Origin: a virus
Length of the DNA: 64,000 nt
IMG/VR virus record: IMGVR_UViG_3300008339_009519
Span: 59,370 to 123,369 of that record
Strand: one strand, 5' to 3'
Part shown: piece by piece, positions 3,346-52,195 of the stretch
Layout of the letters: each line of letters starts with the position of its first letter
Numbering within the stretch: the first letter of the stretch is position 1
Made by a program: the position numbers and the translations under genes
The notes under the pieces: generated by a model
What the model was told of the DNA's origin: nothing
The model's database searches: none
What the model saw: the letters and a program-made list of their open reading frames with translations, nothing else

Positions 3346-3357
3346 TTTTGCTCCTGT

Positions 3358-3741
3358 TTATATATCTTGAGTTATGGATAGGGTAATTGGCTCTAAAGAG
3401 TTGTCTTCAATATGCACATCAAATCTTATTGCTGTTGCAGATACTGGAACTGCGTCTATTGATATAGATCTTCCTTTAAATATTCCACCTTTAGTTTCAT
3501 TTTCTAAAGCTTCTCTAATAATTCTTTTGCCTATTTCACCTGTAGTTTTACTTTGTGGCATTCCTTTGAGAAGGGACAAGTCACAACCTAATCTTGGGTA
3601 AATTGTAAAATCATTTGGTTCAGTCATCAACCTTAAATAGATTTGCTGGGTATCTTTTTGAGCCCTATTTTGGACCATAGCTATATCTTTATTGCCAGAT
3701 AATTTAATGTCTCCATCGTATCCAAAATAAAAATCGCTCAT
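3358..3741 (-). CDS. gp25-like baseplate wedge protein
   Basis: A 127-residue protein of the gpW/gp25 family, the wedge subunit that contacts the sheath initiator position in contractile tails. The typical pattern is visible: an N-terminal 'DIAMVQ' strand, 'DTQQIYLRLMTEPNDFTIYP..G' (about 30-55), a helical 'IGKRIIREAL' and a C-terminal beta hairpin ending in 'ITLSI'. I chose the start at 3741 because its ATG overlaps the preceding stop as TAATG, which implies translational coupling. A longer start at 3768 would lie 27 bases inside the upstream gene. Confidence 0.88.
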   Translation of the reverse strand: MSDFYFGYDGDIKLSGNKDIAMVQNRAQKDTQQIYLRLMTEPNDFTIYPRLGCDLSLLKGMPQSKTTGEIGKRIIREALENETKGGIFKGRSISIDAVPVSATAIRFDVHIEDNSLEPITLSITQDI

Positions 3742-35232: not shown

Positions 35233-35279
35233 TAGCTTTTAGACCTCCGCTTGCAGCATATGTATTTTTACTTCATCAA

Positions 35280-35288
35280 TATAGTAAT
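35280..35288 (-). promoter_or_regulatory. Candidate phage promoter element ATTACTATA (sheath)
   Basis: ATTACTATA on the minus strand, 48 bases before the sheath start in an 87-base gap. It is one of six upstream copies of the same motif in this window. Confidence 0.35.
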
Positions 35289-35319
35289 GGGCATTGTTTG
35301 AAAACAAACCACTAATAAT

Positions 35320-36060
35320 TTATGAATCTGGAGTAGCTGATTGATTTAAATCAATTATATTTAATTCAGTTCCTTCATATGTTGGTGTTGAGCCTTCATA
35401 GAATTGGTCCCAAATCTCTTTTTCCATAGCCATATAACGTCTTACGTCTAACGCTATTTGCTCTATACGCCCAACCTCCATGCCAATAAGCTTTTCGGTT
35501 GTTAACATATAGGTTACGGTTCTTTTATTTACATCTGTAGCGTCCCTATTTTCCTCAGAATCTGATAATCTTCTGGCATATACTAACTCTGATGCACCTA
35601 ATCTTTTAAAAACTGGGGTATATTCCAACATAAAATCTTCGAATATTTCAATAACCTTTTCTGCAACCTCTGGACCAGCATATCTATCTGAAGATCCTTT
35701 TAATTCACCTGAATTTGACTTTGTTATTACGGTAAAAGATATTATATTTTGAAATCTTTGACCAAAAATAGCTATATCTTTTGATGGTGATACTCTACTT
35801 CTGGGCTTTGGCTCTACGGAATGAGCCCTTCTTAACTCTAATCCATATGCTATAACAGGATATTCTGCATAGTCGCCATTTTGAATAGGTTTTATTTTAA
35901 TATTTGGGTATGCGTTTTCCCAGAGGGCTTTTACGGCTGCTATAAATTCTATATATGTTAAATTCCCTTGTGCTTGCAGTGGAGGCAAACTGCCTGAAAC
36001 TCTGTCAAATGAAAATTCATTGATATTAGCTGTTGGGAACATTGGGTAGTTCTGTGGCAT
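35320..36060 (-). CDS. Neck/tail-completion protein candidate
   Basis: A 246-residue protein between the sheath and a sheath-like gene. It contains a TYIEFIAAVKALWENAYP helix, a YPVIAYGLELRRAHS strand region near 60-75 and a 'NIISFTVITKSNSGELKG' strand, followed by an acidic helix 'VAEKVIEIFEDFM'. That layout resembles tail terminator or completion proteins in outline, but no family was firmly recognised. Its ATG shares a base with the preceding stop (TAATG), so it is translationally coupled to the sheath-like gene. Confidence 0.5.
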   Translation of the reverse strand: MPQNYPMFPTANINEFSFDRVSGSLPPLQAQGNLTYIEFIAAVKALWENAYPNIKIKPIQNGDYAEYPVIAYGLELRRAHSVEPKPRSRVSPSKDIAIFGQRFQNIISFTVITKSNSGELKGSSDRYAGPEVAEKVIEIFEDFMLEYTPVFKRLGASELVYARRLSDSEENRDATDVNKRTVTYMLTTEKLIGMEVGRIEQIALDVRRYMAMEKEIWDQFYEGSTPTYEGTELNIIDLNQSATPDS

Positions 36061-37649
36061 TATGCGCCTCTTCCTGATGCTATGTTAAATGATAGTTCTC
36101 TTAAAGTTCTAGAAGAAACAAGTGTTATGTTAAAGTACATTTTTCCTTTTTCTTGCTTATCTGCATACGCGTCTAAACTATAGTTTCTAACTATATCATT
36201 AATTTTTAAGAAATTTAATAATGCTTCAACTTTGCTAGTAATTTTAGAGTATCCAAATTTACCTATTGCATTTTTGCTAATTGCTTGCACTTCAGATATC
36301 ACCATTGCAGCTAAACGAACATTGGAAGAATCTTTAAAGTTTTCGCTTATTGATTGCGTAAAGTCACCACTCAGATATACATCATATGGGCCAGCAAATC
36401 TTCTTGATCTACTTCCTCTTGTTATCGAATTAATTCCTTTGTCATTCAAAGATTTTACTTGTGCTGTAGTTAGTTCTGCCCCATAGCCAGAAAGAGCAGC
36501 AGGAATTCTTTGATTGCTTATTCCATAATTAACTTGCATTGAAGACAATAAGCCAGCTGTTGCTGCAGCTAAAGATGAGCTATAACTTGTTTGCAGTTGT
36601 TTATGTGCAAAGATAGCTTCTCCATAAACAAGCACTAAGTGCTTACCTGTGTCTTTTGTTATAAAACCATTTCCATCAATCGTACTTTGAATGTCAAAAT
36701 TTTTATTTATTAATTCTGTGACATCTTGAGAATTAACACCCTGGTTCTTTGAACCTAATATGCCTATGGTTACTTCGCCAGTATTTTCTTGGATTTTATT
36801 ACAGAAATTAGCTAACTGCTTTGCAAAATTTACTGTTCCAGTGTTTATCATACTAGCTTCTAGTGGAACAACAAAATCTATAAAATCATATTGTTCAATT
36901 AGGTTATAGCAGATTGCGAGACTATTATAATATGTTTGGTAAAAAGTAAATGTATCATTAACACTGTCTTTAAATATTGGCGTATTTCTTTCAGCTACAT
37001 TATCAACGTACTGATTCATGTAGCCTGCTGACATTAAATATATATCTCTTGCACCACAACTATAGGCGTCAAACATTCCTCTTAGTAATGGAGAATTAAT
37101 ATCTGCTCTTAATAAATCTACGCCTTCTTTTATAGAACTAATTTTTTGAATACCATATGGCTCTATTGCATCTGTATGTCCTATTAAAAGTACATTATTT
37201 GTATCAAACTGATCCATCAACTTATATTTAGAAGTTGAATTAATTGAAACAGATTTTCCAAACAAAGAGTAGTCTGAATCAGAGCTTTGCACTACGGCTT
37301 TTATGTGGATATTAATTTCCTTAATATCAATTGCACCATTTAAAGTTGTATTTATTTCAATTGTATATTGTCCGTCAAATGCATTTGCAGGTATCTGCAT
37401 TACAAGATTGTAATAACCTTCTGAGATTCTTTCTACCGAATCTGTTGCTGTAAATGACTGTGAATAGCCTGGGCTTGCTGCTGTAGCTAAATCTATATTA
37501 TAAACATACGGCCCAATTATTACTGGCCCTACTGAACTTAAACCTCTTTTTAAGAAAATTATAATATTAGATTCTGGATCTACATATTCATAGCCAGACT
37601 TATATATAAATGGTATTTCTACACTTTGTCCTGGTGTTACAACTAACAT
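36060..37649 (-). CDS. Second tail sheath-like protein with Ig-like N-terminus
   Basis: A 529-residue protein. Residues 1-130 look like a beta-sandwich domain. From about 150 the sheath pattern appears: 'KISSIKEGVDLLRADINSPLLRGMFDAYSCGARDIYL' (cargo-like nucleotide fold found in sheath proteins), 'KIPAALSGYG'-type middle and 'KMYFNITLVSSRTLRELSFNI' at the C-terminus. It is less similar to typical sheath subunits than the product of 33976-35232, so it may cap the sheath at the neck or form a special ring. ATG 37649 directly abuts the previous stop. Confidence 0.7.
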   Translation of the reverse strand: MLVVTPGQSVEIPFIYKSGYEYVDPESNIIIFLKRGLSSVGPVIIGPYVYNIDLATAASPGYSQSFTATDSVERISEGYYNLVMQIPANAFDGQYTIEINTTLNGAIDIKEINIHIKAVVQSSDSDYSLFGKSVSINSTSKYKLMDQFDTNNVLLIGHTDAIEPYGIQKISSIKEGVDLLRADINSPLLRGMFDAYSCGARDIYLMSAGYMNQYVDNVAERNTPIFKDSVNDTFTFYQTYYNSLAICYNLIEQYDFIDFVVPLEASMINTGTVNFAKQLANFCNKIQENTGEVTIGILGSKNQGVNSQDVTELINKNFDIQSTIDGNGFITKDTGKHLVLVYGEAIFAHKQLQTSYSSSLAAATAGLLSSMQVNYGISNQRIPAALSGYGAELTTAQVKSLNDKGINSITRGSRSRRFAGPYDVYLSGDFTQSISENFKDSSNVRLAAMVISEVQAISKNAIGKFGYSKITSKVEALLNFLKINDIVRNYSLDAYADKQEKGKMYFNITLVSSRTLRELSFNIASGRGA

Positions 37650-38030
37650 TTAACTTGCCGTTTCTTCTTTGCTTGCCCCACACATCCAATATTCAACTTT
37701 ACCATATCTACCTCTTACTGGGTAGCATTCCTCTATTACATATAGAACATAGTCTTCAAGTAAAGAAAAAGAACCTTCATATATTCTATCCCCTGGTTTT
37801 GGGTTTATTTCTGATTCAAAATAATAAACTCTATTTGAATTTATGGTTAAGCCTTCAATTTCTTCCTGCTTTGTTGAAGCTAAATATCTTGAGGCTGCGT
37901 TAGTGTGTCTTGTGGTTACTCTTTCAAGTTTATCGGAATAAAGGCCGTCATCAGATAATCTTCTTTGCAGGAGAATATCGTGACCCCATTCTCTTAGTAT
38001 TTGTTTAAAAACTTTTTTTGCATTAATCAT
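37650..38030 (-). CDS. Head-tail joining/neck protein candidate
   Basis: A 126-residue protein with the pattern of small head-tail connector proteins: an N-terminal helix (INAKKVFKQILREWG), DILLQRRL, a 'RYLASTKQEEIEGL' segment, a strand with VYYFESEINPKPGDRIYEG and a terminal strand pair. I chose ATG 38030, which overlaps the previous stop as ATGATTAA, over an upstream start at 38063 inside the preceding gene. The role is inferred from sequence pattern and neighbours. Confidence 0.6.
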   Translation of the reverse strand: MINAKKVFKQILREWGHDILLQRRLSDDGLYSDKLERVTTRHTNAASRYLASTKQEEIEGLTINSNRVYYFESEINPKPGDRIYEGSFSLLEDYVLYVIEECYPVRGRYGKVEYWMCGASKEETAS

Positions 38031-38919
38031 ATTGACGCAGTCTTCTGTCCGGCATTGGGTCATCTTGCACTATTGGTTTTTTGCCTGGACCATAAAGCTC
38101 TTTGTCTGACAAATAAATTAGTTGACCAGTTTGTGGATCGAGTGTTTTTCCTGAAGTTGCAACTCTTCTGTTTGGAAGTCCTTTTGGTTGCACCCCTCTC
38201 ATTGATACTTTCTTTGCAAGGACCTCTCTTCTCAAAGAAGCGGCTATTTGGCACCAAGTTGTTGCATTTGATCTAGTAGCAACTGCTCTTGGTGCAGATC
38301 TGTTTGTAATTTCTAAATCTGCCAACTTTAATGAAAGTTCATCATCTCCACCAAAGCCATATGTTCTACTTAACTCACAAGCTGCTGCTGCTTTAATGTA
38401 CTCAAGTATAATAAATGGTAGCGTAGATCCATCCTCATCACCTTTTAGCCCATATATTTCTTTTATTTCTAAAGAGTATCTATAAATCATTTCTCCGATT
38501 TCAATTAAAGAAGCGTCTGGAAAAATGGCAACAAGCTCTTCTGGATCAAGATAGAGTGGCGATAAATCAGGAGCAAATATAATAGTTTCATCTGCTCTTA
38601 GAGTTACCGTTGGCTCATAGTCAGTAGTAGAACTATTCGCATACAATGTTAATTTGGAAACTATACTGTTCCCTGAAGATGTGGTGCCAGTAAATGTTAC
38701 TGTGTATGTGTCAGCCTCTGTTGGAGTAAAGTCATAATAATATTCAGAACCAGACAAAAGAGTCGCTGATGTATTAATTACTATTTCAGCGTCTGAATTT
38801 TTTATTAAAACCTGAACACTGACTATCTCTGCTTCTACTTGTACGCCACCGTCACCTTGGTCAAGAAATTTGACTTTTAGTCTGACGCTATCATTAACCA
38901 AAACGTTGCTAACGGACAT
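38023..38919 (-). CDS. Head-tail connector region protein with beta-sandwich N-terminus
   Basis: A 298-residue protein. Residues 1-100 look like an Ig-like beta domain (SVRLKVKFLDQGDGG, then TYTVTFTGTT). Residues 110-220 are helical (DASLIEIGEMIYRYSLEI, then FIILEYIKAAAACELSRTYG), resembling head completion or connector proteins, and the basic C-terminus ends in RRLRQYD. ATG 38919 has GGAG six bases before it. It lies in the same operon as the neck and sheath genes. The function is inferred. Confidence 0.55.
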   Translation of the reverse strand: MSVSNVLVNDSVRLKVKFLDQGDGGVQVEAEIVSVQVLIKNSDAEIVINTSATLLSGSEYYYDFTPTEADTYTVTFTGTTSSGNSIVSKLTLYANSSTTDYEPTVTLRADETIIFAPDLSPLYLDPEELVAIFPDASLIEIGEMIYRYSLEIKEIYGLKGDEDGSTLPFIILEYIKAAAACELSRTYGFGGDDELSLKLADLEITNRSAPRAVATRSNATTWCQIAASLRREVLAKKVSMRGVQPKGLPNRRVATSGKTLDPQTGQLIYLSDKELYGPGKKPIVQDDPMPDRRLRQYD

Positions 38920-39288: not shown

Positions 39289-40089
39289 TTAAAATTCTAA
39301 CCCAGCATCTTTTCTTAGATTTGGCATCCAGATTCTCCAGTCTCCGTTTTCTGTAATGCCTTCTGATGGTGTCCCATATAAAAAAGACCCAAGATAGGCT
39401 ATTCTTAGGCCAGCAGTTACTGGAGCCACTTCATGAGTTCCTATAAAATTAGTAGGGTATATTACGGCTGATCCAGCTTTTGGCTTATAGGTATGTTTTG
39501 CGTGTTTATGCGTAATCTCTCCGCCCATAAAATTATATCCGTTTAACTGATCTTCTGAGTCAACACAATCATTTAAGTAAATATTAACACTTACCTTACT
39601 ATGTTTTGGGTACTCATTTTTTGGTTTTTCTCCAAACCTAAATGGGATCTGATCATCACAGTGTGGGCCTATTCCCTGACCATTTTCATATGTTGCGATA
39701 TGACCCATACCTCTCCACCAGCAGACCGTTGAAGCGTCTGGATAATACTTACAGTATTCAACAAGTATTCTGTACATTAGATCTTCTAAGTCTGCTATAA
39801 ATTGCTCTTGCTCCTTAGTTACTTGTCTTGTTAATGAATTATTCATTTTTAATAGTGGATCTATAAATCTATTTGGTGCCAAGCTGACCGCATCTGGATC
39901 AAATTTAAATCCAGTTTTATTAATCGCATATCTTTTACCATCTTCAACAACATATGTAAAAGTTTTTTCTTCTTCTTCTCTCAACATCATTATGTAGTCA
40001 AATAAAAACTTTTGGTTAATATCAATAGCGTCTTCCACAACACAAAGACCGCTACCTACATCTTTCATTTTTAATTTAGTATCTAACAT
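39289..40089 (-). CDS. 2OG-Fe(II) oxygenase, prolyl-hydroxylase-like (copy 4 of tandem set)
   Basis: A 266-residue 2-oxoglutarate/Fe(II) dioxygenase. The iron ligands are visible as HxD in GPHCDD (about 143-145) and a distal His in GTHEV (about 223), and the 2OG-binding Arg in GLRIAYLG about ten residues later. The sequence between reads VNIYLNDCVDSED, then GGEITHKHAKHTYKPKAGSAVIYP, as in P4H-type enzymes. It is a paralog of the next three upstream genes. The start overlaps the previous stop (TAATG). The substrate is unknown; proline residues of virion proteins are one possibility. Confidence 0.88.
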   Translation of the reverse strand: MLDTKLKMKDVGSGLCVVEDAIDINQKFLFDYIMMLREEEEKTFTYVVEDGKRYAINKTGFKFDPDAVSLAPNRFIDPLLKMNNSLTRQVTKEQEQFIADLEDLMYRILVEYCKYYPDASTVCWWRGMGHIATYENGQGIGPHCDDQIPFRFGEKPKNEYPKHSKVSVNIYLNDCVDSEDQLNGYNFMGGEITHKHAKHTYKPKAGSAVIYPTNFIGTHEVAPVTAGLRIAYLGSFLYGTPSEGITENGDWRIWMPNLRKDAGLEF

Positions 40090-40988
40090 TATTGACCATA
40101 GCTTGATTTTGTAATTCTATATTGTTCTGAAAACTCGTCATAACCCCTAGATAAAAGATGCTTTCTGTAGTCTTCTACAAGAGTTGGCATGTATACGTTT
40201 GTTGATGTCTGTGCTGCGACAGGATCAACAAGTGGATCAGCTACTGCTTCTTTAACTTCTATATTTGGAGTTCCGTGACTATACCATCCAAGATAAGAGT
40301 ATCTCATTCCACCTTCAACTGGCTTGACCTCATGCCCAGCAGTGTACGAGGCTGGAAAAAATAAAATATCTCCCTTTTTAGGGATATGAGTAATGTCTAA
40401 ATAATTGAAATAATGATGACCACCCATGAAATTCTTTCCATCTAATTTGTCTTCTGAGTCAACACAATCATTAAAATATATAAGAGCTGTTACTGTACTT
40501 CTCATCGCAAGTTGATCATTTGGAGTCCAAACTCCATATATGTAATCAGTGCTAATATCTGAGTGTGGACCTAAATAAGCGCCTTTTTTGTAGGCAACGA
40601 TGTGACCTTTTACCTTCCACCATATACATTTGAATGCTAGCGGATAAAATTCTAAATATTTAAATAAGTATTTATCTCTTGACTGTTCAAGTCCATTAAG
40701 AAAATTAACAACGTCTTCTCTAGGATCTTGGTGTGCCGCAGAACCTCTTCCTGGCATGATGTCAATTGATTCTTTACCAAAGAAGTATCCACTTCTATTT
40801 ATATAGATTTCTTCTCCTGTTTCTGGGTCAATTCCAGGCTTATACATTGCATTTCTTTCTCTTGTGACTATCTCTTCACAAAAATCAAATGCCTTATCAC
40901 CATCAAAGCTAACAGCATTCTCGAAAAGAACAACTCCGCCACCAAGATCTTTTCCTTCAATATCGTTGTTGATAACCAAATTATTCAC
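40089..40988 (-). CDS. 2OG-Fe(II) oxygenase, prolyl-hydroxylase-like (copy 3)
   Basis: A 299-residue paralog with FKCIWWKVKGHIVAYKKG, the iron-binding HSD in LGPHSD (about 145), and the distal His in AGHEV followed by GMRYSYLG with the 2OG-binding Arg. The C-terminal extension of about 60 residues ends with VYMPTLVEDY, shared with the other copies. It starts with GTG at 40988, eight bases inside the previous gene, with AGGAG upstream. All known catalytic residues are kept, so it should be active. Confidence 0.87.
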   Translation of the reverse strand: MNNLVINNDIEGKDLGGGVVLFENAVSFDGDKAFDFCEEIVTRERNAMYKPGIDPETGEEIYINRSGYFFGKESIDIMPGRGSAAHQDPREDVVNFLNGLEQSRDKYLFKYLEFYPLAFKCIWWKVKGHIVAYKKGAYLGPHSDISTDYIYGVWTPNDQLAMRSTVTALIYFNDCVDSEDKLDGKNFMGGHHYFNYLDITHIPKKGDILFFPASYTAGHEVKPVEGGMRYSYLGWYSHGTPNIEVKEAVADPLVDPVAAQTSTNVYMPTLVEDYRKHLLSRGYDEFSEQYRITKSSYGQ

Positions 40989-41898
40989 CCATTAACTCCT
41001 TAACAGTATTAGAACTATTATACATTCTAGTTGTTGGTTTTAACAACTCATTTGCAGCCTTGCTATCTTCATCGTATTTACTTTTTATATATTCAACATA
41101 ATCCTTTACTACATCTGGCATCCATACTTGACCCTGTAAACCAGGCGGAATATCACCGTGAGTTATATTTATTCCTCTATCTGGGTGTGGAGAACCCTGG
41201 GAAAAGTACCCTATGTATGCGTATCTGCTGCCTTCATTGCATGGGTTGATTGCGTGAGAACCTAAATAATTAGACGGAAACATTAGTAAGTCGCCTGATT
41301 TTGGTTTATATACAACATCTGCATATGGAAAAAAAATTTCCCCATTTAAGTATTCATACTTATTTATTTCATCTTTAGATTCTACTGAAGAATTTAAATA
41401 TATAATTGATCCAACAACACTTCTTGTGGCTACCTGCCAATCAGGTTCAAATCCTGGCTGGTAATTGACATCATTATCGCTGTGGAGTCCCATAGCACTG
41501 CCTGGGCCATAAGCCAAAATATGGCCCTGCGTTCTCCACCACAGGCTTGGAAGCAACATAGGAAATAGTTCTACATACCTAAGTAAGTTGCTGTAGAATG
41601 TTTTTTCGCACTGAGCAAAGAAGTTTATTAAAAATGGATCACTATCCTTATTTAGGAAATCCATTATATGGCTAGAGCTATTGTATATAGACTCTAAAGT
41701 ATACCTATGACCACTTCTGTTAATCGCATACAGTGGATTTTTATTTTCATCATAGATGATTTTATAATCATCTTTTATTGCTTTTTCCTTTAAAGATGCA
41801 ATAAATGGTATTATTTTATCCTCATCAACATCAATAGCATTTTTGAAAAGTACTATCCCCATCCCAAGATGTTGTGGTTTAATCTCTTTCGTGCCCAT
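40981..41898 (-). CDS. 2OG-Fe(II) oxygenase, prolyl-hydroxylase-like (copy 2)
   Basis: A 305-residue paralog. It has LWWRTQGHILAYGPG, HSD in MGLHSDND, and distal His in LGSHAI with GSRYAYIGYF carrying the Arg. I placed the start at ATG 41898, two bases after the upstream TAG. A longer frame reaches ATG 41928 but would lie inside the previous gene and would include an in-frame CGG at 41923-41925; using the shorter start keeps this gene free of CGG, as in the rest of the genome. Confidence 0.86.
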   Translation of the reverse strand: MGTKEIKPQHLGMGIVLFKNAIDVDEDKIIPFIASLKEKAIKDDYKIIYDENKNPLYAINRSGHRYTLESIYNSSSHIMDFLNKDSDPFLINFFAQCEKTFYSNLLRYVELFPMLLPSLWWRTQGHILAYGPGSAMGLHSDNDVNYQPGFEPDWQVATRSVVGSIIYLNSSVESKDEINKYEYLNGEIFFPYADVVYKPKSGDLLMFPSNYLGSHAINPCNEGSRYAYIGYFSQGSPHPDRGINITHGDIPPGLQGQVWMPDVVKDYVEYIKSKYDEDSKAANELLKPTTRMYNSSNTVKELMGE

Positions 41899-41900
41899 AG

Positions 41901-42995
41901 CTAAACTCTTACTGGGTCTGTTCCGCATGGGCCTTCTGGTAAATCTTCTGAGCCAGAAGCAGTTGCCTCTTCTTTAACCTCTACCGCTTCGTGGGTAGTG
42001 TTATACTGTGCTACATTTCGCCCTTGGTAAACTGGGTTCCAGCCAATTTCAACATTGTATTTTTCTGGATTAGAATATATAGAGTATGGTGACTTGCAGT
42101 AACGTTCATAGTCATCATAGATATTGTTAAGCCATACTGCTGGGCACCATTCAAAGCTTCGGTCTGGTTCTGATATGACAATTCCAGCAGAGATATCATC
42201 TGCGCCTTGTCCAAAGAAGGACAAATAGCTATATCTTACTCCTTTGCCCATTCTTTCAACATCGTGGGCTGCAACAAAATTTGTTGGAAAAAATATAATA
42301 TCTCCTTTTTTAGGGCTATAAGATATTCCTAAATGAACAAATCTTAAATGGCCTCCTGTGAAGTTTCTGCCATTTAACTCTTCTTCTGAGTCAACGCAGT
42401 CATTTAGATAAATAAGTGAACCACAAGTCTGTCTTGATGCAACCATGCCTCTTGGCATATATCGAACACCGTTAGTTACTTTATAATTTGTATCATTATC
42501 AGCATGGCACCCTAAGATGCCACCATTACCGTATCTAAGAACATGGCCTCTATTCTTCCACCAAATACTGCCCAACATTAATGGATAATGATCTATATAT
42601 TTAAGTAGACATTTATAATTTTGTTCTTCTAGATAAAGAAAAAAATCTTTTACTTCTTGTGGAGTTTCATCAGTTACTGGATGCAGAAGCCTTACTGGAG
42701 TTGAGGGGATATCCTCTAACCTATATCTAAATCCATCTTCATTTATGCCATACTCATTTCCATCTTCTGCGGTAATATAAGCCCATCTATTTTCGTGTGC
42801 TTTCTCTGCTTTAGAATCAATATAATCTAAAATAACTTGCTGATTTATATTAAAAGCGTTTCTAAAAACAATTACACCTGGTCCTAGAACTTCTACTTGG
42901 AGTTCGCCAATCTCTTCGATTATACTATCATCAATATCTGGGGTAACTGGGAAGGCCACACTATTGATATATTTATCCACTGGGTTATTTTCCAT
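41901..42995 (-). CDS. 2OG-Fe(II) oxygenase, prolyl-hydroxylase-like (copy 1)
   Basis: A 364-residue paralog, the longest of the four. It has IWWKNRGHVLRYGNG, HAD in LGCHADND, a GSLIYLNDCVDSEEELNG region, and a distal His in AAHDV followed by GVRYSYLSFFGQG with the Arg. The N-terminal 35 residues and the C-terminal 60 residues (Glu/Ala-rich) are specific to this copy. ATG 42995 is two bases from the preceding stop. It opens the tandem array of four, which seems to have arisen by duplication and divergence. Confidence 0.87.
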   Translation of the reverse strand: MENNPVDKYINSVAFPVTPDIDDSIIEEIGELQVEVLGPGVIVFRNAFNINQQVILDYIDSKAEKAHENRWAYITAEDGNEYGINEDGFRYRLEDIPSTPVRLLHPVTDETPQEVKDFFLYLEEQNYKCLLKYIDHYPLMLGSIWWKNRGHVLRYGNGGILGCHADNDTNYKVTNGVRYMPRGMVASRQTCGSLIYLNDCVDSEEELNGRNFTGGHLRFVHLGISYSPKKGDIIFFPTNFVAAHDVERMGKGVRYSYLSFFGQGADDISAGIVISEPDRSFEWCPAVWLNNIYDDYERYCKSPYSIYSNPEKYNVEIGWNPVYQGRNVAQYNTTHEAVEVKEEATASGSEDLPEGPCGTDPVRV

Positions 42996-42997
42996 GT

Positions 42998-43615
42998 TTA
43001 CCCCAACATCTCGTCTATTGCTTCTCGTATTGTCCAGCCAGCACCCATAACTCTTGGTATTTCATCTAATGGCATGTCTTGCCAGTTAAATCTGGCAACC
43101 ATAATACCATCTCTACTTACTAAAAATTTTTCATAACCATGAGAAATTCTAGCAATAGCTTGCCCGGCAAGGTTTTGGTTTTCTTTTGCTTTATTACTTT
43201 GATCTGCTGTAAAGTCAGAATAATTTCTTTTTTCATTGCCTTTAAGTGCGGCAAATAATGGGTGTTCATTTTTTCCATTGACATCAACTTTTTCAAAAAA
43301 TGGAAAAGTAACAAATGGATAATGTTCTTTAACAAAAGTCTTTATTTCTTCATTTGTTCCTGGTTCCATTTGTGCAAATTGATTGTTCGGAAAAGCTAGA
43401 ACAGAAAATCCTCTATCTTTAAATTCATCGTGGACTTTTTGTAGTTGCCACAGTTGTCTACATGTTCTAGCATATGACCAGACTTTTGAGCACTTGGGTG
43501 TATATCCACCAGCTTTCGTGGATACGTTTACTATAAGAGTTAACATCCCATCAAACTTTGATAAAAAGTTTTCTTCTCCATCTATGGAGTTAGCAGGTAT
43601 TTTATATATTGACAT
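42998..43615 (-). CDS. Glutathione-peroxidase-like protein lacking the usual catalytic Cys
   Basis: A 205-residue thioredoxin-fold protein of the glutathione peroxidase family. NNQFAQMEPGTNEEI (about 80-95) is the family signature and YEKFLVSRDG matches the late conserved strand. In the active-site loop, where peroxidases have NVASxCG, this protein reads NVSTKAGGYTPKC: Ala replaces the peroxidatic Cys (or Sec) and a Cys sits further along. It may be inactive as a peroxidase or use a displaced Cys. I chose ATG 43615; an ATG at 43651 would overlap the upstream gene by 50 bases. Confidence 0.75.
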   Translation of the reverse strand: MSIYKIPANSIDGEENFLSKFDGMLTLIVNVSTKAGGYTPKCSKVWSYARTCRQLWQLQKVHDEFKDRGFSVLAFPNNQFAQMEPGTNEEIKTFVKEHYPFVTFPFFEKVDVNGKNEHPLFAALKGNEKRNYSDFTADQSNKAKENQNLAGQAIARISHGYEKFLVSRDGIMVARFNWQDMPLDEIPRVMGAGWTIREAIDEMLG

Positions 43616-43922
43616 TTTTTTCACCAGTAATATTAACTTCCATATATTCATCGATTTTTAAAACACCATGAAAGATGAATTCATTTATTTCAACTTCAGC
43701 GGCAATAGTCGCTTTTATTGGGGTGTCTACTGTCGCAGAAAGTTTAAGCTTGTTTCCATCTATTATGCCATTAGAGAATTCTACGGAACCATTTTCCCCA
43801 ATTATTGTACCAGTCACAAATGGATCAGTTGAATCAAGGATTACATCTGCCTTAGATTCACCAAATGGTGTGATAACTTTTACAGACCATTTTCCAACCA
43901 AACTATCTCTTGTATTTAACAT
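43602..43922 (-). CDS. Small beta-barrel-like protein
   Basis: A 106-residue protein with the repeated pattern GKWSVKVITPFGESKADVIL, then VTGTIIGENG, IDGNKLKLSATV and FHGVLKI, which is typical of small calycin-like or lipocalin-like beta domains found in bacterial hypothetical proteins. No catalytic residue is evident. Its end overlaps the peroxidase-like gene by 14 bases, so the two are probably co-translated. Confidence 0.55.
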   Translation of the reverse strand: MLNTRDSLVGKWSVKVITPFGESKADVILDSTDPFVTGTIIGENGSVEFSNGIIDGNKLKLSATVDTPIKATIAAEVEINEFIFHGVLKIDEYMEVNITGEKNVNI

Positions 43923-43941
43923 AATAAGATTATATCATAAA

Positions 43942-44619
43942 TTATTCGTAATAAAACTTCCCTGTAGACAAAGCCGTAGGAATACTGTCCTTATGCCAAA
44001 CATTGATCACCATAACGCGACGGACTCCAGTTAAAGGGGGTGTAGTGTTATGAATTATATGACCTGCGTCAAAAATAATTAACCTATTTGGTTTACAGGC
44101 TATTCTTTCCCTAAGTTCAATCGGCACTATAAGTGGTTCTATATTCTCCATCTCTAGCGCATTATGTGTTTCTTCAGAAACTGCGGTTGGATGCAATTCC
44201 AAAAATCCACCTACAACTTCATTAAAATCTGGATAATAAACACAGCCTGTTTTAGGCCCTCTGAATATCTTGGTATCTGCATAAAGAAACGTATCTTCGT
44301 CAACGTGAGTTCCTAAATATTGACCTGGCTTAAAGGTTCTTGTCCAGTATTCAAAACCACATAATTCTTCAATAGGGAATGGAAGATTGTTTTCCCAAAT
44401 TGCTTGAATAACTTTTTTTCTTGCTGTATTTGCAGGAGATTTATGCCAACCATCCCAAAACATGTAGGGTGCATAGCAGTCGGCCTGCTCACTATGATAG
44501 CTATTTAATTCAGAAGCTATTCGATCTTCATTGCCCATTGAAATAGGAAAAAAATCTTTTGTGTTTTCTATTTCTTTTAGAAGATTTTTGTCTTTTATAT
44601 AGTCATCAATGACTATCAT
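43942..44619 (-). CDS. 2OG-Fe(II) oxygenase (second family)
   Basis: A 225-residue dioxygenase unlike the tandem four. HVD in YLGTHVDED (about 107-109) gives the proximal ligands, IIFDAGHIIHNTT carries the distal His (about 190-195), and GVRRVMVINVWH supplies the Arg. TGCVYYPDF..VVGGFLELH is the usual core strand. ATG 44619 is seven bases after the upstream stop. This type often modifies proteins or small molecules in phage and bacterial clusters; the substrate is unknown. Confidence 0.85.
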   Translation of the reverse strand: MIVIDDYIKDKNLLKEIENTKDFFPISMGNEDRIASELNSYHSEQADCYAPYMFWDGWHKSPANTARKKVIQAIWENNLPFPIEELCGFEYWTRTFKPGQYLGTHVDEDTFLYADTKIFRGPKTGCVYYPDFNEVVGGFLELHPTAVSEETHNALEMENIEPLIVPIELRERIACKPNRLIIFDAGHIIHNTTPPLTGVRRVMVINVWHKDSIPTALSTGKFYYE

Positions 44620-44625
44620 ATAAGA

Positions 44626-45333
44626 TTAGTCCTTGATGATTACAGTATGCCCAGGCGCAGTTGGAATGTGATACACATTAAGACCTGATATTGATTTTAC
44701 TATTTGGTGTAACTCATATGCTGGAGTATATTCGCTATCAGAAGCGTAAACTCTTAAGTCATCATTTGTATGCGATACGACCATAGTGGCACCAGGATTT
44801 AATGCCTCACAGAAATTTTCTATAAGAGATATATCATGGAAAATGTCAAACTCAGTTATAAAAATAAAATCAAATTTACCAAGGGTTCCACTTTCAACAT
44901 CTTGCATTGATTTTGTTTGGTAATCCCAGGAAACGTTATCATCCGCCAAGCAGTGTTCTAAGTAATCTAATTGATAATTATTGATAAATGTAAGATCTGT
45001 TGTTGAATTCATTAATTTAGCGATAGTATAATTAAACGCTGGATTACTCATCAGTGTTTTTGTGGGCTTTGCTGCCAAGAATAACATTTCTACATATGAT
45101 GAAGTGTATTCTGAAACAAAACTATCATTCCAGACGGAGTCTTCTGCTGAAAAAACTTCAAAAAACCAAGTAACAAGATCTCTACCAATTGCTTCTCTTC
45201 TTTTATCTATTGGAAGAGTAGTGAGATAGTCATTTACTTTTCTAGATACGTCAAGTGTGCCCTGAATTTCAAGCGCTTTGTATTTAACAAGTTTTTCTAA
45301 TCTATCATAATAAAGTTTATCATTATTATTCAC
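44626..45333 (-). CDS. Methyltransferase-like Rossmann protein
   Basis: A 235-residue protein. The C-terminal half has the order of a class I methyltransferase: DLTFINNYQLDYLEHCL, then KFDFIFITEFDIFHD, then FCEALNPGATMVVSH, and a final strand. The N-terminal glycine-rich SAM loop is not recognisable, so cofactor use is unsure and it may be only a related Rossmann fold. It starts with GTG at 45333, overlapping the previous gene by eight bases. Co-location with oxygenases suggests a role in the same modification pathway. Confidence 0.5.
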   Translation of the reverse strand: MNNNDKLYYDRLEKLVKYKALEIQGTLDVSRKVNDYLTTLPIDKRREAIGRDLVTWFFEVFSAEDSVWNDSFVSEYTSSYVEMLFLAAKPTKTLMSNPAFNYTIAKLMNSTTDLTFINNYQLDYLEHCLADDNVSWDYQTKSMQDVESGTLGKFDFIFITEFDIFHDISLIENFCEALNPGATMVVSHTNDDLRVYASDSEYTPAYELHQIVKSISGLNVYHIPTAPGHTVIIKD

Positions 45334-45637
45334 GGTTTAAAGCTCCTATTGCTAGTTGACGCCAATACCAAAATCTTCTAATGTTTAGAATTAGGAACAT
45401 TCTTTGATGCTTCAAGAAAACATCTTCTGGTGTGCCTGCAAAAATACTGTTTTGAGTTTCATTAATATAAAATGCGGATGAATTTTCCCTATCAACTTTT
45501 GATAAGCTTCTTGCTGCGGACAGCAACTCGTCAATTGTTACTGAATCTAATGATTCCGGATCTAACCCAACCATAAACATAAAGTATGCTAGTTGCTTTT
45601 CTATATAGCTTATATTTTCTTGAGCATTGAACGCCAT
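45326..45637 (-). CDS. Small helical protein, GxDPE family
   Basis: A 103-residue helical protein. Residues 8-35 (ISYIEKQLAYFMFMVGLDPESL) match the pattern in the genes at 45852-46070 and 46080-46331: an amphipathic helix followed by GxDPE/D. The C-terminus RRFWYWRQLAIGALNRE is aromatic and basic. Function is unknown; it may be a small assembly or regulatory protein duplicated in this locus. Confidence 0.55.
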   Translation of the reverse strand: MAFNAQENISYIEKQLAYFMFMVGLDPESLDSVTIDELLSAARSLSKVDRENSSAFYINETQNSIFAGTPEDVFLKHQRMFLILNIRRFWYWRQLAIGALNRE

Positions 45638-45650
45638 AAAAATCCTATTC

Positions 45651-45845
45651 CTATACTAAATCTTGGTCTTCTATGTGAAGACCGTTATCTGTCAGTAGCG
45701 CCACTGGTGAGGCAAGGCCTGCACATTGGACAATCGCACCATCGTTAAACATAAAAGTACCATCATCCTTAGAATACACTGCATAATTGTTTTTTTCTTC
45801 TACTTGGGTGACGAATTCTTTTTCGTTTATATTTGGATTTGACAT
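45651..45845 (-). CDS. Small acidic protein, unknown
   Basis: A 64-residue acidic protein with two short beta-like segments (YAVYSKDDGTFMFNDGA and ASPVALLTDNGLHIE). It has no membrane segment and no motif. It is packed with 7- and 13-base gaps between small genes of the same block, so it is likely real, but no function can be assigned. Confidence 0.5.
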   Translation of the reverse strand: MSNPNINEKEFVTQVEEKNNYAVYSKDDGTFMFNDGAIVQCAGLASPVALLTDNGLHIEDQDLV

Positions 45846-45851
45846 ATTTTA

Positions 45852-46070
45852 TTAGCCTTTTAAGTTCTCAAGAACTGTAACTTGGTTAATTAACGATTCA
45901 AAAGCTAATTCTTGATTAGCGCCTACAATCTCAGCTGGTTTTTGCATAGATGAAGAAACATTATCTGGATCAATCCCCAAAAGAACAGCCAACATATATA
46001 TTGATTTTTCTAAATATGAAATAGCTTTATTTTTTACAGAAAGCAATTCCGCTGAACTCACGTTTTGCAT
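45852..46070 (-). CDS. Small helical protein, GxDPE family
   Basis: A 72-residue helical protein. ISYLEKSIYMLAVLLGIDPDNV is the signature shared with the genes at 45326 and 46080, followed by a second helix. It is probably a paralog produced by local duplication. Confidence 0.5.
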   Translation of the reverse strand: MQNVSSAELLSVKNKAISYLEKSIYMLAVLLGIDPDNVSSSMQKPAEIVGANQELAFESLINQVTVLENLKG

Positions 46071-46079
46071 GTCTCTCCC

Positions 46080-46331
46080 TTACGAAAGTTGTTGTATTTT
46101 TGCTTTTAGAGTGGTTAATTTTGTTAAATTAGCGCTAATGTCTCTCTTGATCGCAAAGTCTCTATCTTCTTCTGCAGAAGAGGATGAGTCAAAGACAAAG
46201 GTGCTTGGATTAAATGTTTCAGGGTCTTCTCCAAGTTGATGAATCAGTCTATACAAGTCGTCTTCAACGTTGCGGAGTGCTGTTTCTGCGCTCTTCTTTT
46301 TTTCTGAATTTGAAATTAATGAAAAATCCAT
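46080..46331 (-). CDS. Small helical protein, GxDPE family
   Basis: An 83-residue protein with the signature DDLYRLIHQLGEDPETF, an acidic Ser-rich linker and a final helix (LTKLTTLKAKIQQL). It is the first gene of the small-protein block and has a candidate promoter element 33 bases upstream. Confidence 0.52.
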   Translation of the reverse strand: MDFSLISNSEKKKSAETALRNVEDDLYRLIHQLGEDPETFNPSTFVFDSSSSAEEDRDFAIKRDISANLTKLTTLKAKIQQLS

Positions 46332-46363
46332 TCTTCCTCACTTTTTAGTTATAACGTTAGCTT

Positions 46364-46372
46364 AATAGTAAT
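46364..46372 (-). promoter_or_regulatory. Candidate promoter element ATTACTATT (46331 start)
   Basis: Minus-strand ATTACTATT 33 bases before the start at 46331, in a 63-base gap. Confidence 0.35.
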
Positions 46373-46394
46373 AAATATCTGTAAAATTTTATGT

Positions 46395-47099
46395 TTAAAT
46401 TTTTGGATTTTCTAATTTTATTAAACCAGAATTTGCTGGGCCTATTCTTTCGCCCTTTTCATTTAAGCCAGTTTTTATGCCCTTCATCCATGTCCAGGGC
46501 TCTTCTCTATTTTTTCTCATTTTTTCTTCGCCGTATGCTTGTCTGGCCTCCATGAGATCTGGCTTATCCCAAAGATTGTCTACCTCAAACTTAACCGATT
46601 CTAAAACATTACTTTTAAAGATATTAAAAAACATAAATGGTGTTCCAGCAGAAAAAGTGACTGGCTCATTTATTTTAGTAATCATCCAATTCATTTGGAA
46701 CTCATCTGGCCACCAACTTGAAGGAATTATAGCTGAAAGAGCAAAAGCTCCATCGATGTTATAGTTTGGTGGACCACTAATATATGTTTCATAACCATCT
46801 TCCGTACCAAAAGCCCAACCAACCGAAAATGAAACCATGCCTACTATTCCCCCATATGCTAACTGCCTATCTTTATAAAATTCTCCTTCTAGGATTTTTG
46901 GCACGGTGTTGCCGCCATCCCACTGCACAACTACATCTTGTGGAAGAATTAGCTCCCACCCGCTGACATTAGCGGTTGTGACTGGGAGACATTGATAGGC
47001 GTGTTTTTTATAGGTATTATCCATCCAGTCTCTTTTAAGACGTGATTGGACTATTTCTGGTGGATTTTGATGAGTTTTTGTTAAAGTAACTTTAGTCAT
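46395..47099 (-). CDS. DUF6065-like protein
   Basis: A 234-residue protein with the layout I know for DUF6065: a YQCLPVTTANVSGWEL segment near 35-50, an IVGMVSFSVGWAFGTEDGY core, PSSWWPDEFQMNWMITK, and 'FSAGTPFMFFNIFK' near 155. The C-terminus is basic and helical. The family is of unknown function and often travels with 2OG oxygenase genes in phages and bacteria, as here. The match is by recalled pattern. Confidence 0.7.
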   Translation of the reverse strand: MTKVTLTKTHQNPPEIVQSRLKRDWMDNTYKKHAYQCLPVTTANVSGWELILPQDVVVQWDGGNTVPKILEGEFYKDRQLAYGGIVGMVSFSVGWAFGTEDGYETYISGPPNYNIDGAFALSAIIPSSWWPDEFQMNWMITKINEPVTFSAGTPFMFFNIFKSNVLESVKFEVDNLWDKPDLMEARQAYGEEKMRKNREEPWTWMKGIKTGLNEKGERIGPANSGLIKLENPKI

Positions 47100-47102
47100 A
47101 CA

Positions 47103-47717
47103 TTAAACAAGTTCTTCTAAAAGAACCTCAATAGCTGCTTTAATATTAATTAAAGACTGTTGCGAATTAGTTTTTCTATTTCCTGCGTCAAAAGCTAGAT
47201 CAAGAAGATCTGAGTTACAAAATCTAAACATTTTTTTTCCATCTCTAGAGATAATAAACTTTTCAAAGTTTCCTTGGACTGGACCACCGTTTGCTGGGAA
47301 CCCACCATATTGAAGAATATCATAAAGCTTATGTGGAGCTAATCCAGAATCTTCATCTTTTTTGATGGTAACCATTTCAGTATATGGCAAATCTGTTTTA
47401 TAGTGATTCTGCATGTGTGCTCTCATATTTTCTGCTGTTGCACTTGTATCAGCAAATTCTCCATAGGCAAATTCGCAAAAGTCTGTGCTTGGTATTGCAA
47501 GTACTTCAAAACCCTGATCTTTATACTCATGATATAAAGATTCAATAATTGGGTATTGGGCTGAATTAGCACACTCTCCTGTTACATTTGTAATCATTGT
47601 AACCTTACCCTTATATCTTGATAAAATATCTTTTTCTCCATTAATAGAATTGATAGATACGTCATATAAAGACTGTTCAAATGTTTGAAGCGTTGGTAGT
47701 TCGTTTTTCTCTAACAT
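47103..47717 (-). CDS. Glutathione-peroxidase-like protein with catalytic Cys
   Basis: A 204-residue thioredoxin-fold peroxidase. The active loop reads NVTGECANSAQYP, keeping the Cys at the position of the peroxidatic residue; the second loop is AIPSTDFCEF, and GNFEKFIISRDGK (about 155) is the typical C-terminal strand. Compared with the paralog at 42998 it keeps the reactive Cys but has a less typical Gln-containing loop. It might reduce peroxides or support iron enzymes nearby. Start ATG 47717. Confidence 0.75.
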   Translation of the reverse strand: MLEKNELPTLQTFEQSLYDVSINSINGEKDILSRYKGKVTMITNVTGECANSAQYPIIESLYHEYKDQGFEVLAIPSTDFCEFAYGEFADTSATAENMRAHMQNHYKTDLPYTEMVTIKKDEDSGLAPHKLYDILQYGGFPANGGPVQGNFEKFIISRDGKKMFRFCNSDLLDLAFDAGNRKTNSQQSLINIKAAIEVLLEELV

Positions 47718-47724
47718 GGGTGTC

Positions 47725-48459
47725 TCATCCTGGCATTGGGTAGGTTATAGGCTGGTTTGTGCCTTTTGTTATTCCAGCAGTTTGATTGACCACAGGACCA
47801 TCAGCAGTATACCCAATGGCATATTTATGATTATTGTCATTGTAGTCAAACATTGTAACTGCTGAATATTTAGTCCCACTGGTCACTTTTAAGGAGGCAT
47901 GTGCATAAATAAAAGTTGATGGAAAGAGAATAATATCTCCGGCTTGAGGTTTAAAATTGATATCTAAGTATGGAAACCACAATTCCCCACCCTCATAATC
48001 ATCATTTAAATATATCACCGAAGACACAGTACAGCTGTATGAAAAGCCATGATCTGCATGAACAGCAAAGTGTTGACCAGGGTTATATCTTACAAAGTTA
48101 ATAGCTTCCATGTAGTCCATTTTAAAATTGTAGAGAGATTCATAGTGAGTCAGACATTTTTTGAGATGTGTTTCAACATCTTCATAACACTTTCTGACTT
48201 CTTCAAATTCTGGGGTAAGATACTGCCAATGAGATGGACTCATTTTTAGGTCAACACAATCTCTGTAGTCTGGCATTTTTGTATTATATCCTACCATCGC
48301 TTCAGACCACTTAAAAAGATCATGCGTACTATTGCCGATAGTTGCCTCTAATCTTTCTGGAATGTTAAGCTCTCTTGGAATGGCGTTTCTATACAAATAG
48401 ATCCCAAATTTTCTATTATCTTCTGGATTAGCGCAGGCTCCTACATGAAAAAATTCCAT
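47725..48459 (-). CDS. 2OG-Fe(II) oxygenase with Lys in place of the 2OG-binding Arg
   Basis: A 244-residue dioxygenase. HAD in HFAVHADHG (about 137-139), VSSVIYLNDDYEGGELWFPYLDINFKPQAGDIILFPS and the distal His in YAHASL are in place. Where the family has an Arg for 2-oxoglutarate (GxRYS), this protein reads GTKYSAV, so Lys takes that role or the cofactor affinity is changed. The start at ATG 48459 faces the only plus-strand gene across a divergent gap. Confidence 0.82.
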   Translation of the reverse strand: MEFFHVGACANPEDNRKFGIYLYRNAIPRELNIPERLEATIGNSTHDLFKWSEAMVGYNTKMPDYRDCVDLKMSPSHWQYLTPEFEEVRKCYEDVETHLKKCLTHYESLYNFKMDYMEAINFVRYNPGQHFAVHADHGFSYSCTVSSVIYLNDDYEGGELWFPYLDINFKPQAGDIILFPSTFIYAHASLKVTSGTKYSAVTMFDYNDNNHKYAIGYTADGPVVNQTAGITKGTNQPITYPMPG

Positions 48460-48534
48460 TTTTTGACTTCTTTCGATCAGTAAAATTGTTTAGTGATATA
48501 CTATATCATATAAGTATAAGCTGAGGAGCAAAAT
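48460..48534. promoter_or_regulatory. Divergent intergenic region with near-palindromic promoter candidate
   Basis: A 75-base gap between divergent genes. GATATACTATATC at 48495-48507 is nearly its own reverse complement, so each strand reads a TATACT or TATAGT-like box at 30 to 40 bases before its start codon. A GAGGAG ribosome site at 48523-48528 serves the plus-strand gene. Confidence 0.5.
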
Positions 48535-49170
48535 ATGGATTTTCAACCAGAAGAAAAATCTCTAGTAGAACCTGGTCATTTTGGTTCTTCAAAAGATAAT
48601 ATTCTTATAGTAAAAAATTTTGTTGAATTAGAAGATTTAAAAACAATACAAAAATTTTTACCAACCATTAATGAATGGATGGATGCTGGAAAAAATAAAT
48701 ATGCTGAAGACGGGACCTGCACATATGATGCGTCTTACTGGCAGAATCGTCAGTGTAGTGGAGAAATTTTATCTAGAATTAACTTAGATGTATACAATTT
48801 AGTTGATAAATACATTATAAAAATGAAATGGCTTTTAGAAGACAATTTTAAAGTCAAACTAACTGTAAGACCCCCTGTTATTATAAGGTGGTTTCCTGGT
48901 CTTGAACAGCAACCTCATGCTGACAAGCAGCTCAATGATGGATCACCAAATCCATTCCCAACATATGATTTAAATTCATTAATTTATTACAATGATAATT
49001 TTACTGGGGGAGAATTATACTATCCTCAGCATGCTCTTGAAGTTAAACCTGAGCCCGGACTTGCCGTAGCTCATCCAGGAGATATTAACTATCTTCATGG
49101 AGTAAAAAAAGTACTTTCAGGAGAAAGATATACTACTCCTTCTTTTTATACAATAACTAAATTATTGTAA
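48535..49170 (+). CDS. 2OG-Fe(II) oxygenase, only plus-strand gene
   Basis: A 211-residue dioxygenase with HAD in PHADKQ (about 127-129), LNSLIYYNDNFTGGELYYPQ, and distal His in YLHGV followed by GERYTTPSFY with the Arg. It has a strong GAGGAG site six bases before ATG 48535. Its end overlaps the end of the convergent membrane-protein gene by nine bases. It differs from the tandem family and resembles the protein of 47725-48459 in core layout; separate control is likely. Confidence 0.87.
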   Translation: MDFQPEEKSLVEPGHFGSSKDNILIVKNFVELEDLKTIQKFLPTINEWMDAGKNKYAEDGTCTYDASYWQNRQCSGEILSRINLDVYNLVDKYIIKMKWLLEDNFKVKLTVRPPVIIRWFPGLEQQPHADKQLNDGSPNPFPTYDLNSLIYYNDNFTGGELYYPQHALEVKPEPGLAVAHPGDINYLHGVKKVLSGERYTTPSFYTITKLL

Positions 49171-50266: not shown

Positions 50267-52195
50267 TTATGCCGCCAAGTCTCCTAAAGCTACCCATGTA
50301 TCAGTAGCGCGTTTGATAAGTGTAGCAGATGACCACTGCGTACGCAACTTAAGACCTGGTGTGGCGTTAACTGTAACTCCAGCTTGAGCAGCAATTGTTG
50401 TTTGACCAGATCCAGTTTGAAGAACTGTAATTGTTGTTCCGACTGGGAAAGCAACGTTTGAATTGCTCGGTACAGTAAGGTTATTCGCTGATCCTACGTT
50501 CATTTCAACCATGTCGCCTCTATCACCTAAAACTAGAGTATAGCTTGCTGTCTGGGCGTTTGTGACCGTATCACTAAATATTCTTTGATATACTGTGCCA
50601 TCGTTTGTAAACTCCCAACAATCGTCTGTTTCATTCCAGCGGAAAACAACATTTGTTGAGGTTCCACGCTCTACTTCAATTCCAGCGTTCTGGCTTGGTG
50701 TGCCAGCTTCATTGTTATTTAATATAATGATATTATCATCAATTGTAAGTGTTTCTGTATTAATACTTGTTGTAGTCCCAGAAACTGTCAAGTTACCAGA
50801 AACAGTTAAGTTTCCAGCAACTGTTGGGTTAGATGTGTTAACCCAAGCCGATCCGTTATAAAGAAGGACTTGATTTGTAACTGCTGAAGTTATTGTTACA
50901 TCAGAAAGTTCTGATACGCCAATTGTTTCAGCAAGCCCTGTGCTAACCCAAGCTGAACCATTATATTTTAAAAACTGACCATTTGTTGCGCCTGTTACTG
51001 CAACGTCGCCAATATCATCAAGATTATTGATTGTTGGAATTGAAGCCCATTCAATGCCAGTAGCAGCAGATGAATTAGCTTTTAAGTAATATCCATCTGT
51101 TCCAACAGAAAGAACTGCTGGAGTATCATTCGCTGTAGCAGTAAAAATATCACCTTTAGCATTTGCTGTTGTCTTCAAAATAGCATCATCTGATATTTGA
51201 GCAACGACGAAAGCTGTTGTTGCAATTTGCGTATTGTTTGTACCAACTGCCGCTGTTGGTGCTGTTGGTGTGCCTGTTAAAGCTGCGTTTGCTGCTGTAG
51301 CATAGCCGACAAATGAAACGTTTGCGGTTGCGGTTCCAGACACTCTGCCATATGAATCAACAGTTAATCCAGTAACAAATGTTGTTGTATTTGAACCTGT
51401 TGTATTACTCTGCGCTACCTCTGCAAGATCGATGTTATCAGCATTGATAACTATTCTTGAAGAGCTTGCTGTAACAACATCAAGGCTGTTGCCAGTTTTT
51501 GTTAAACCATTGCCAGCTGACAATGTGGCAGTGCCTGTAAACTGAGTATATGTTAAATCATCAGTCCCAAGCACAAATGCGCCAGACCCACCAGAGCCAG
51601 TTGATGTAAGTATGAAACCTTGTCCAGAATTTGCTGAACCAGAAAGAACTAGAAGTGCGTCACCGGTCTTTAATTGACCAGCAGTGCTATTGTCTGCATC
51701 TGTTCTACGTGTAAGAATAAATGCGGTTGTTGATGTAGCTCCCTGCTCAGTTACAGTATAAATACCGTTATGCGCTGCATTGGATTGGTTTTTTACTAAA
51801 ACTGATTGACCAGTTGTGACCTGAGATCCATCGACAGTTAATCTACCATTACTATCACCAGTAAGTGTTGCTCCTGCGCCACTTGAACCATTCGCGTAAG
51901 TGCATGTTGGAAGAGCTGCAGCTGTTGCATAATTAGCAACTTCATGCCAGTTGATTCCAGCTGTTAGTGAATCTACGTATCCCCTTGTTGCAAGAGCAGT
52001 TGATCCTGTTCCTGCATTTGATGCAACAACAGAAGTAACGTTCATTACTCCGTTTGCTGCTATATTAGCAACGACTGAACCACTAGAGTTTTTAAACTCT
52101 ACGAGAGGGGCTGTTGCGCCTGATGCTGCCTTGAATACTGCTGATTCATCATACACCGTAATTTCAGGTGCGGTTTCTGTTCTTAAACGTGCCAT
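50267..52195 (-). CDS. Tail fibre protein
   Basis: A 642-residue beta-rich fibre. It carries the modules shared by the other fibres here: GQFLKYNGSAWVSTG, then LTVSGNLTVSGTTTSINTETLTIDD, NAGIEVERGTSTNVVFRWNET, and a C-terminal 'LRTQWSSATLIKRA' to GDLAA end. Repeated short strands suggest a trimeric beta-helix or beta-sandwich shaft; receptor contact is likely at one end. ATG 52195 is preceded by AGGAG and a candidate promoter element lies 36 bases upstream. The Pro-repeat gene starts one base after its stop. Confidence 0.8.
   Translation of the reverse strand: MARLRTETAPEITVYDESAVFKAASGATAPLVEFKNSSGSVVANIAANGVMNVTSVVASNAGTGSTALATRGYVDSLTAGINWHEVANYATAAALPTCTYANGSSGAGATLTGDSNGRLTVDGSQVTTGQSVLVKNQSNAAHNGIYTVTEQGATSTTAFILTRRTDADNSTAGQLKTGDALLVLSGSANSGQGFILTSTGSGGSGAFVLGTDDLTYTQFTGTATLSAGNGLTKTGNSLDVVTASSSRIVINADNIDLAEVAQSNTTGSNTTTFVTGLTVDSYGRVSGTATANVSFVGYATAANAALTGTPTAPTAAVGTNNTQIATTAFVVAQISDDAILKTTANAKGDIFTATANDTPAVLSVGTDGYYLKANSSAATGIEWASIPTINNLDDIGDVAVTGATNGQFLKYNGSAWVSTGLAETIGVSELSDVTITSAVTNQVLLYNGSAWVNTSNPTVAGNLTVSGNLTVSGTTTSINTETLTIDDNIIILNNNEAGTPSQNAGIEVERGTSTNVVFRWNETDDCWEFTNDGTVYQRIFSDTVTNAQTASYTLVLGDRGDMVEMNVGSANNLTVPSNSNVAFPVGTTITVLQTGSGQTTIAAQAGVTVNATPGLKLRTQWSSATLIKRATDTWVALGDLAA

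Follow-up and report, generated by a model that had tools for sequence, protein, structure and literature searches.

A conserved block of 2OG-Fe(II) oxygenase genes, with a four-paralogue tandem array, beside the neck and tail genes of a phage group

Introduction

Seven genes for 2OG-Fe(II) oxygenases lie within 10 kb of phage DNA, and four of them are paralogues standing in tandem. Several other virus groups are already known to carry such enzymes; what is new is that four paralogues form an array which stays together throughout a large and widely sampled phage group. The stretch of DNA analyzed here, referred to as the window, has 64,000 nucleotides and covers positions 59370-123369 of the virus record IMGVR_UViG_3300008339_009519, that is, the last 64 kb of 123,369 bp. 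We tentatively propose that the block encodes working protein hydroxylases which would be expressed late and would modify the phage's own virion proteins; their substrate, activity and co-expression are the parts of this proposal that we infer.

The Phage, Its Relatives and Its Probable Host

By coordinates, the record coincides with the 123 kb at the right end of an IMG/VR contig of 171,197 bp (G001), and it is regarded as part of this contig because genes of TauD, PF13640 and DUF6065 proteins are found at a constant offset; the first gene of the array (A4) is 100% identical between the two. The window encodes families of the tail sheath, the baseplate wedge and tail fibres, from which the virus is classified as a contractile-tailed phage. 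No near relative of it was found among 50,697 phage records searched, and its tail sheath is approximately 30% identical to the sheaths of Moorella and Bacillus phages. Between the baseplate and tail genes there is a single ORF of 3533 aa (window 6865-17466).

The host is probably actinobacterial, as suggested by WhiB, which was found in 6 of the 12 large relatives, by a class II RNR with 81% identity to that of Actinomycetia phage DSL-LC01, and by DNA polymerase III alpha, for which Streptomyces phages are the best named phage matches. The acyl-CoA dehydrogenase gene was also considered as an indicator of the host, and its best matches (37–39%) were uninformative. At record positions 1-2116, a TauD-family dioxygenase gene is directly followed by an acyl-CoA-dehydrogenase-like gene; this pair is not an edge artefact, since by coordinates it is internal to the 171-kb contig. 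The habitat would be mainly fresh water, judging from the link to DSL-LC01 and from general knowledge of IMG/VR sample numbers. Two relatives of approximately 210 kb (G002 and G008), which is the size of jumbo phages, carry exact end repeats of 123 bp (IMGVR_UViG_3300013005_000001) and 119 bp (IMGVR_UViG_3300044630_006293) and are thus most simply complete circular assemblies, although both are catalogued as linear.

Seven Oxygenases with Intact Active Sites

All seven genes of the original prediction were recovered as open reading frames with support from PF13640 or from orthologues. The array is encoded on the minus strand and starts with A4 (41901..42995, 364 aa), a P4H-fold 2OG-Fe(II) oxygenase, followed by its paralogues B3 (40981..41928, 315 aa), C2 (40089..40988, 299 aa) and D1 (39289..40089, 266 aa), with PF13640 scores of 37.9, 30.2, 44 and 40.8 bits, respectively. 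The remaining three are, as had been predicted, of other types: the divergent 2OG-Fe(II) oxygenase E5 (43942..44619, minus strand, 225 aa), the P4H-like F6 (47725..48459, minus strand, 244 aa; PF13640 49 bits), and G7 (48535..49170, 211 aa), an oxygenase on the opposite, plus strand. PF13640 is above its cut-off for the four array genes and F6, whereas G7 falls just under it (23.9 of 27 bits, E 8.5e-5; phrog_61 2.3e-14) and E5 far under it (E 0.0078). E5 is counted as a family member because PF13640 is matched by 18 of its 21 orthologues (best E 1.7e-6) and because H105, D107, H190 and R/K200 are invariant in its family.

The iron triad HxD...H is formed by H164, D166 and H244 in A4, H149, D151 and H225 in B3, H142, D144 and H219 in C2, H143, D145 and H219 in D1, H105, D107 and H190 in E5, H134, D136 and H187 in F6, and H128, D130 and H188 in G7. 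The 2OG-binding Arg or Lys is located about 10 residues past the distal His in all seven families, being R254, R235, R229, R229, R200, K197 and R198 in the same order. Since some of the fetched loci are near-copies of each other, residues were counted on distinct orthologue sequences. The triad is invariant in every family (38–46 distinct orthologues each; A4 46/46, B3 38/38, C2 42/42, D1 38/38, E5 38/38, G7 40/40), and closer alignment thus revealed no loss of the iron ligands that had been claimed to be kept. The 2OG-binding residue is Arg in six families, with Lys in 3 of 38 E5 sequences, and either Lys or Arg in F6. Outside the window, the record possesses a further PF13640 gene (3007-3639) and three TauD-family dioxygenases, giving a total of 11 2OG oxygenases in 123 kb (7 in the window and 4 outside).

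Fold and Enzyme Type

An AlphaFold2 model of A4 (58-row alignment, pLDDT 85.6), in which the protein is predicted to adopt the double-stranded beta-helix fold, gave 309 matches in the PDB at E<=0.001 with 2OG oxygenases as the best. These include Chlamydomonas P4H (2jig/3gze), PBCV-1 vCPH (5c5t), bacterial P4H, PHD2 and PKHD enzymes, together with numerous phage 2OG dioxygenases that have no assigned function. The Chlamydomonas and PBCV-1 enzymes have the fold and active site in common with A4, but they are only about 14% identical, are encoded by single genes and act on collagen-type or Pro-rich substrates. By sequence, the F6 family profile matches Bacillus P4H (6e-12), human P3H1 (1e-8) and LH3 (4e-6). 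The best profile and fold matches to the block enzymes are Bacillus P4H (3itq/5hv0/5v7y) and PKHD-type PiuC/YbiX (3dkq), yet the block enzymes stay far under the NCBIfam equivalog cut-off of the PKHD type (PRK05467; D1 31 and F6, the best, 41 of 143 bits).

Most of the matched enzymes act on peptides or proteins, and because they mostly hydroxylate peptidyl residues, a protein substrate is favored. This argument is not airtight, since PolD of Streptomyces cacaoi, an enzyme of a biosynthetic pathway, is also among the structure matches of A4. The block might instead encode auxiliary metabolic enzymes whose substrates are small molecules, glycans or lipids, or which do no more than turn over 2OG. 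Two of the three TauD-type dioxygenases do lie near glycosyltransferase-like and methyltransferase-like genes, and for cyanophages a role in 2OG/nitrogen metabolism has been suggested (PMC3037559, PMC9602691). We nevertheless consider such substrates improbable: TauD is a different family located elsewhere in the genome, the PF13640 enzymes of the block match mostly peptide or protein hydroxylases with PolD as the exception, and four diverged paralogues are not needed for burning 2OG. It is still far more improbable that the enzymes modify phage DNA bases in a TET/JBP-like manner, which would agree with very weak, sub-threshold Tet_JBP matches of F6 and one gene outside the window, whereas PF13640/P4H is the best match for all of them and the block has no modification-gene context.

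A protein substrate could also belong to the host, for example a translation factor or ribosomal protein whose hydroxylation redirects the infected cell. Two of the matched structures show a P4H with EF-Tu: the Bacillus one (5v7y) is among the nearest solved relatives of F6, and the P. putida complex (4iw3) is matched by A4. Host targets are rather unlikely in our view, as the genes have a fixed place amid virion genes and not amid takeover or replication genes, and four to eight enzymes are many for such a task.

An Old Tandem Array under Strong Selection

The description of A4, B3, C2 and D1 as paralogues in tandem whose ends overlap or abut is well supported, as B3, C2 and D1 are each 32–35% identical to A4, C2 and D1 overlap by 1 nt (TAATG), and B3 and C2 by 8 nt; the listed ORFs of A4 and B3 overlap by 28 nt, and the two genes would abut with a B3 start at the ATG directly after the A4 stop. 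In a maximum-likelihood tree, the phylogeny that had been suggested as a check, each of A4, B3, C2, D1, F6 and G7 is monophyletic with bootstrap values of >=99%, while long branches leave the order of the deep splits unresolved. Each paralogue forms its own clade, and therefore the duplications are older than the radiation of the phage group. Median dN/dS is 0.058 for A4, 0.060 for B3, 0.061 for C2 and 0.052 for D1, compared with 0.060 for the neck gene c4, 0.086 for c6 and 0.129 for the sheath. The array is thus under strong purifying selection, with values as low as or below those of the neck and sheath genes tested.

These observations also touch on the idea that the four paralogues are virion or assembly components, forming a hetero-oligomer in which catalysis is secondary. 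The array adjoins the structural cluster, the order of the paralogues is fixed, and selection is as strong as on structural genes, but the iron and 2OG ligands are never lost in the four paralogues and B3 can drop out as a unit, so we regard a mainly structural role as very unlikely. Of 78 informative loci, 7 lack B3, all from one clade of relatives. A connection of this loss with the loss of a neck gene was considered and rejected, because c10, the neck gene in question, is split over two frames and not lost in five of the loci without B3; these five loci belong to one clade and no inference is drawn from them. The split of c10 (window 37650-38063) in L045, L047, L049, L050 and L086 may be real, a frameshift or an assembly error.

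The paralogue alignment found no relatives of the array in bacterial genomes, and 396 genomes of the phylum of an Amycolatopsis genome yielded only short and weak matches. In the phage records searched, the array family had only a distant partial match (28%).

Conserved Gene Order and Companion Genes

Relatives of the tandem family are encoded on at least 256 stretches in IMG/VR, and the best 80 were fetched, which makes them a best-scoring and not a random sample. A search for the same block in relatives had been proposed, and the same order was indeed found in approximately 80 viral loci: tail fibre, G7 on the opposite strand, F6, GPX2 where present, DUF6065, a variable part, E5, GPX1, A4-B3-C2-D1, c7, neck genes, sheath and two paired tail genes. 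Because this order recurs in so many loci, chance clustering is rejected. In nearly all relatives the block sits between tail-fibre and neck/sheath genes, and in some of them extra oxygenases follow directly after D1. In the window, the neck and tail genes after the array occupy 33976..38919 on the minus strand in conserved order (38023-38919, 37650-38063, 36060-37649, 35320-36060 and the tail sheath at 33976-35232, with a sheath phrog match of 7.9e-26). A tail-fibre-like protein (50267..52195, minus strand; phrog_8745 1.3e-34), found in 41 loci, flanks the block at its opposite end.

The oxygenases are accompanied by further genes on the minus strand, among them three small conserved ones (43602-43922, 44626-45333 and 45326-45637, spanning 43602..45637). 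The GPX-fold protein GPX1 (42998..43651, GSHPx 2e-26) is directly upstream of A4 in every relative having that stretch. It lacks the peroxidatic Cys/Sec at the canonical position, which is A, F, Y, L or S in the orthologues aligned, while Cys54, five residues past this site, is invariant, and it has an insertion of approximately 13 residues (WSYARTCRQ...). A second GPX-fold protein, GPX2 (47103..47717, GSHPx 3.2e-14), occurs in about half of the relatives, with 37 members in the loci compared. The DUF6065 protein (46395..47099, 234 aa; PF19541 1.7e-44) was found in 74 loci and in 12 of 12 large relatives, and in 0 of 3 other phages. Among 398 genomes sampled from one bacterial phylum, 25 also carry it, but scanning of 18 neighborhoods with oxygenase profiles detected no oxygenase there. 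As a functional clue DUF6065 was set aside, its model being poor (pLDDT 61.5) and its dUTPase-like matches weak.

Comparison with Known Systems

Seven oxygenases in 10 kb had been called unusual even for phages that carry several. The density is real, but it is normal within this phage group and not without precedent outside it, since Synechococcus phage S-SCSM1 has six annotated oxygenases in 9.0 kb (210.7–219.7 kb), interspersed with genes for tail fibres and minor coat proteins, and 24 2OG-Fe(II) oxygenase genes in its genome, where most T4-like cyanophages have 1–5 (PMC9602691). One of the six is annotated as ferrochelatase and contains a PF13640 domain; our own PF13640 scan (E 0.001) recovered four of them. 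S-SCSM1 and the T4-like cyanophages resemble the phage of the window in having many PF13640-type genes per genome, and the cyanophage proteins listed are about 26–35% identical to F6 over part of its length. They differ in lineage and host, and have neither a conserved four-paralogue array nor DUF6065. DSL-LC01, a freshwater phage of 129 kb (PMC10611076), shares the closely related RNR, the lake habitat and the probable host phylum, but has no PF13640 gene, no DUF6065 and, as annotated, another set of structural genes.

Proposed Function

According to the virion-protein proposal, the enzymes would be working hydroxylases that depend on 2OG and Fe(II) and have the prolyl-4-hydroxylase/PKHD fold, and the four tandem genes would have arisen by old duplications and later become specialized, each holding its own lineage. 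The array genes may be made together and late in infection, because they adjoin the neck and tail part of a one-direction cluster and their ends overlap. Their targets would be specific Pro, Lys, Asn or Asp side chains at different positions in the virion proteins of the phage itself, most likely those of the neck, tail or fibre. Map position is no proof of late expression or of a virion target. The placement in unrelated cyanophages is consistent with such a target in S-SCSM1, where oxygenases lie amid tail-fibre genes, and in S-H9-1, where an oxygenase gene is beside the tail chaperone; against it, the best F6 match in several cyanophages lies near the uvsX/gp41 replication genes and not near tail genes, and DSL-LC01 has several collagen-annotated proteins and no PF13640 gene at all.

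Collagen-like proteins were considered as a general explanation of the substrate and rejected, because only 2 of 12 large records, G002 and G008, have a match to the collagen family (PF01391); the other 10, among them the record of the window and the 171-kb contig containing it, have none. Tracts of (G-X-Y)8+ occur in the fibre genes of a few relatives, and near the block, collagen-like (GPT)n tracts were seen in the fibre genes of L042, L064, L069, L077, L078 and L080 only. The fibre proteins of the window are low in Pro (about 1.5–3.6%) and in Lys, and Asn and Asp are more frequent in them; Pro may still be hydroxylated at single sites.

The array is under selection as strong as that on the virion genes tested, has a fixed place beside the neck and tail genes and is found on hundreds of contigs, so that these enzymes appear to be core functions of the phage and not optional metabolic cargo. 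The fixed location gives a short list of candidate substrates, namely neck, sheath, tube and fibre, and the question of virion substrates becomes open to virion proteomics. In a bolder version, which we consider unlikely, maturation in this abundant group of freshwater actinophages, some of them jumbo-sized, would need oxygen, with four specialized hydroxylases, perhaps in one complex, each modifying a defined neck or tail site.
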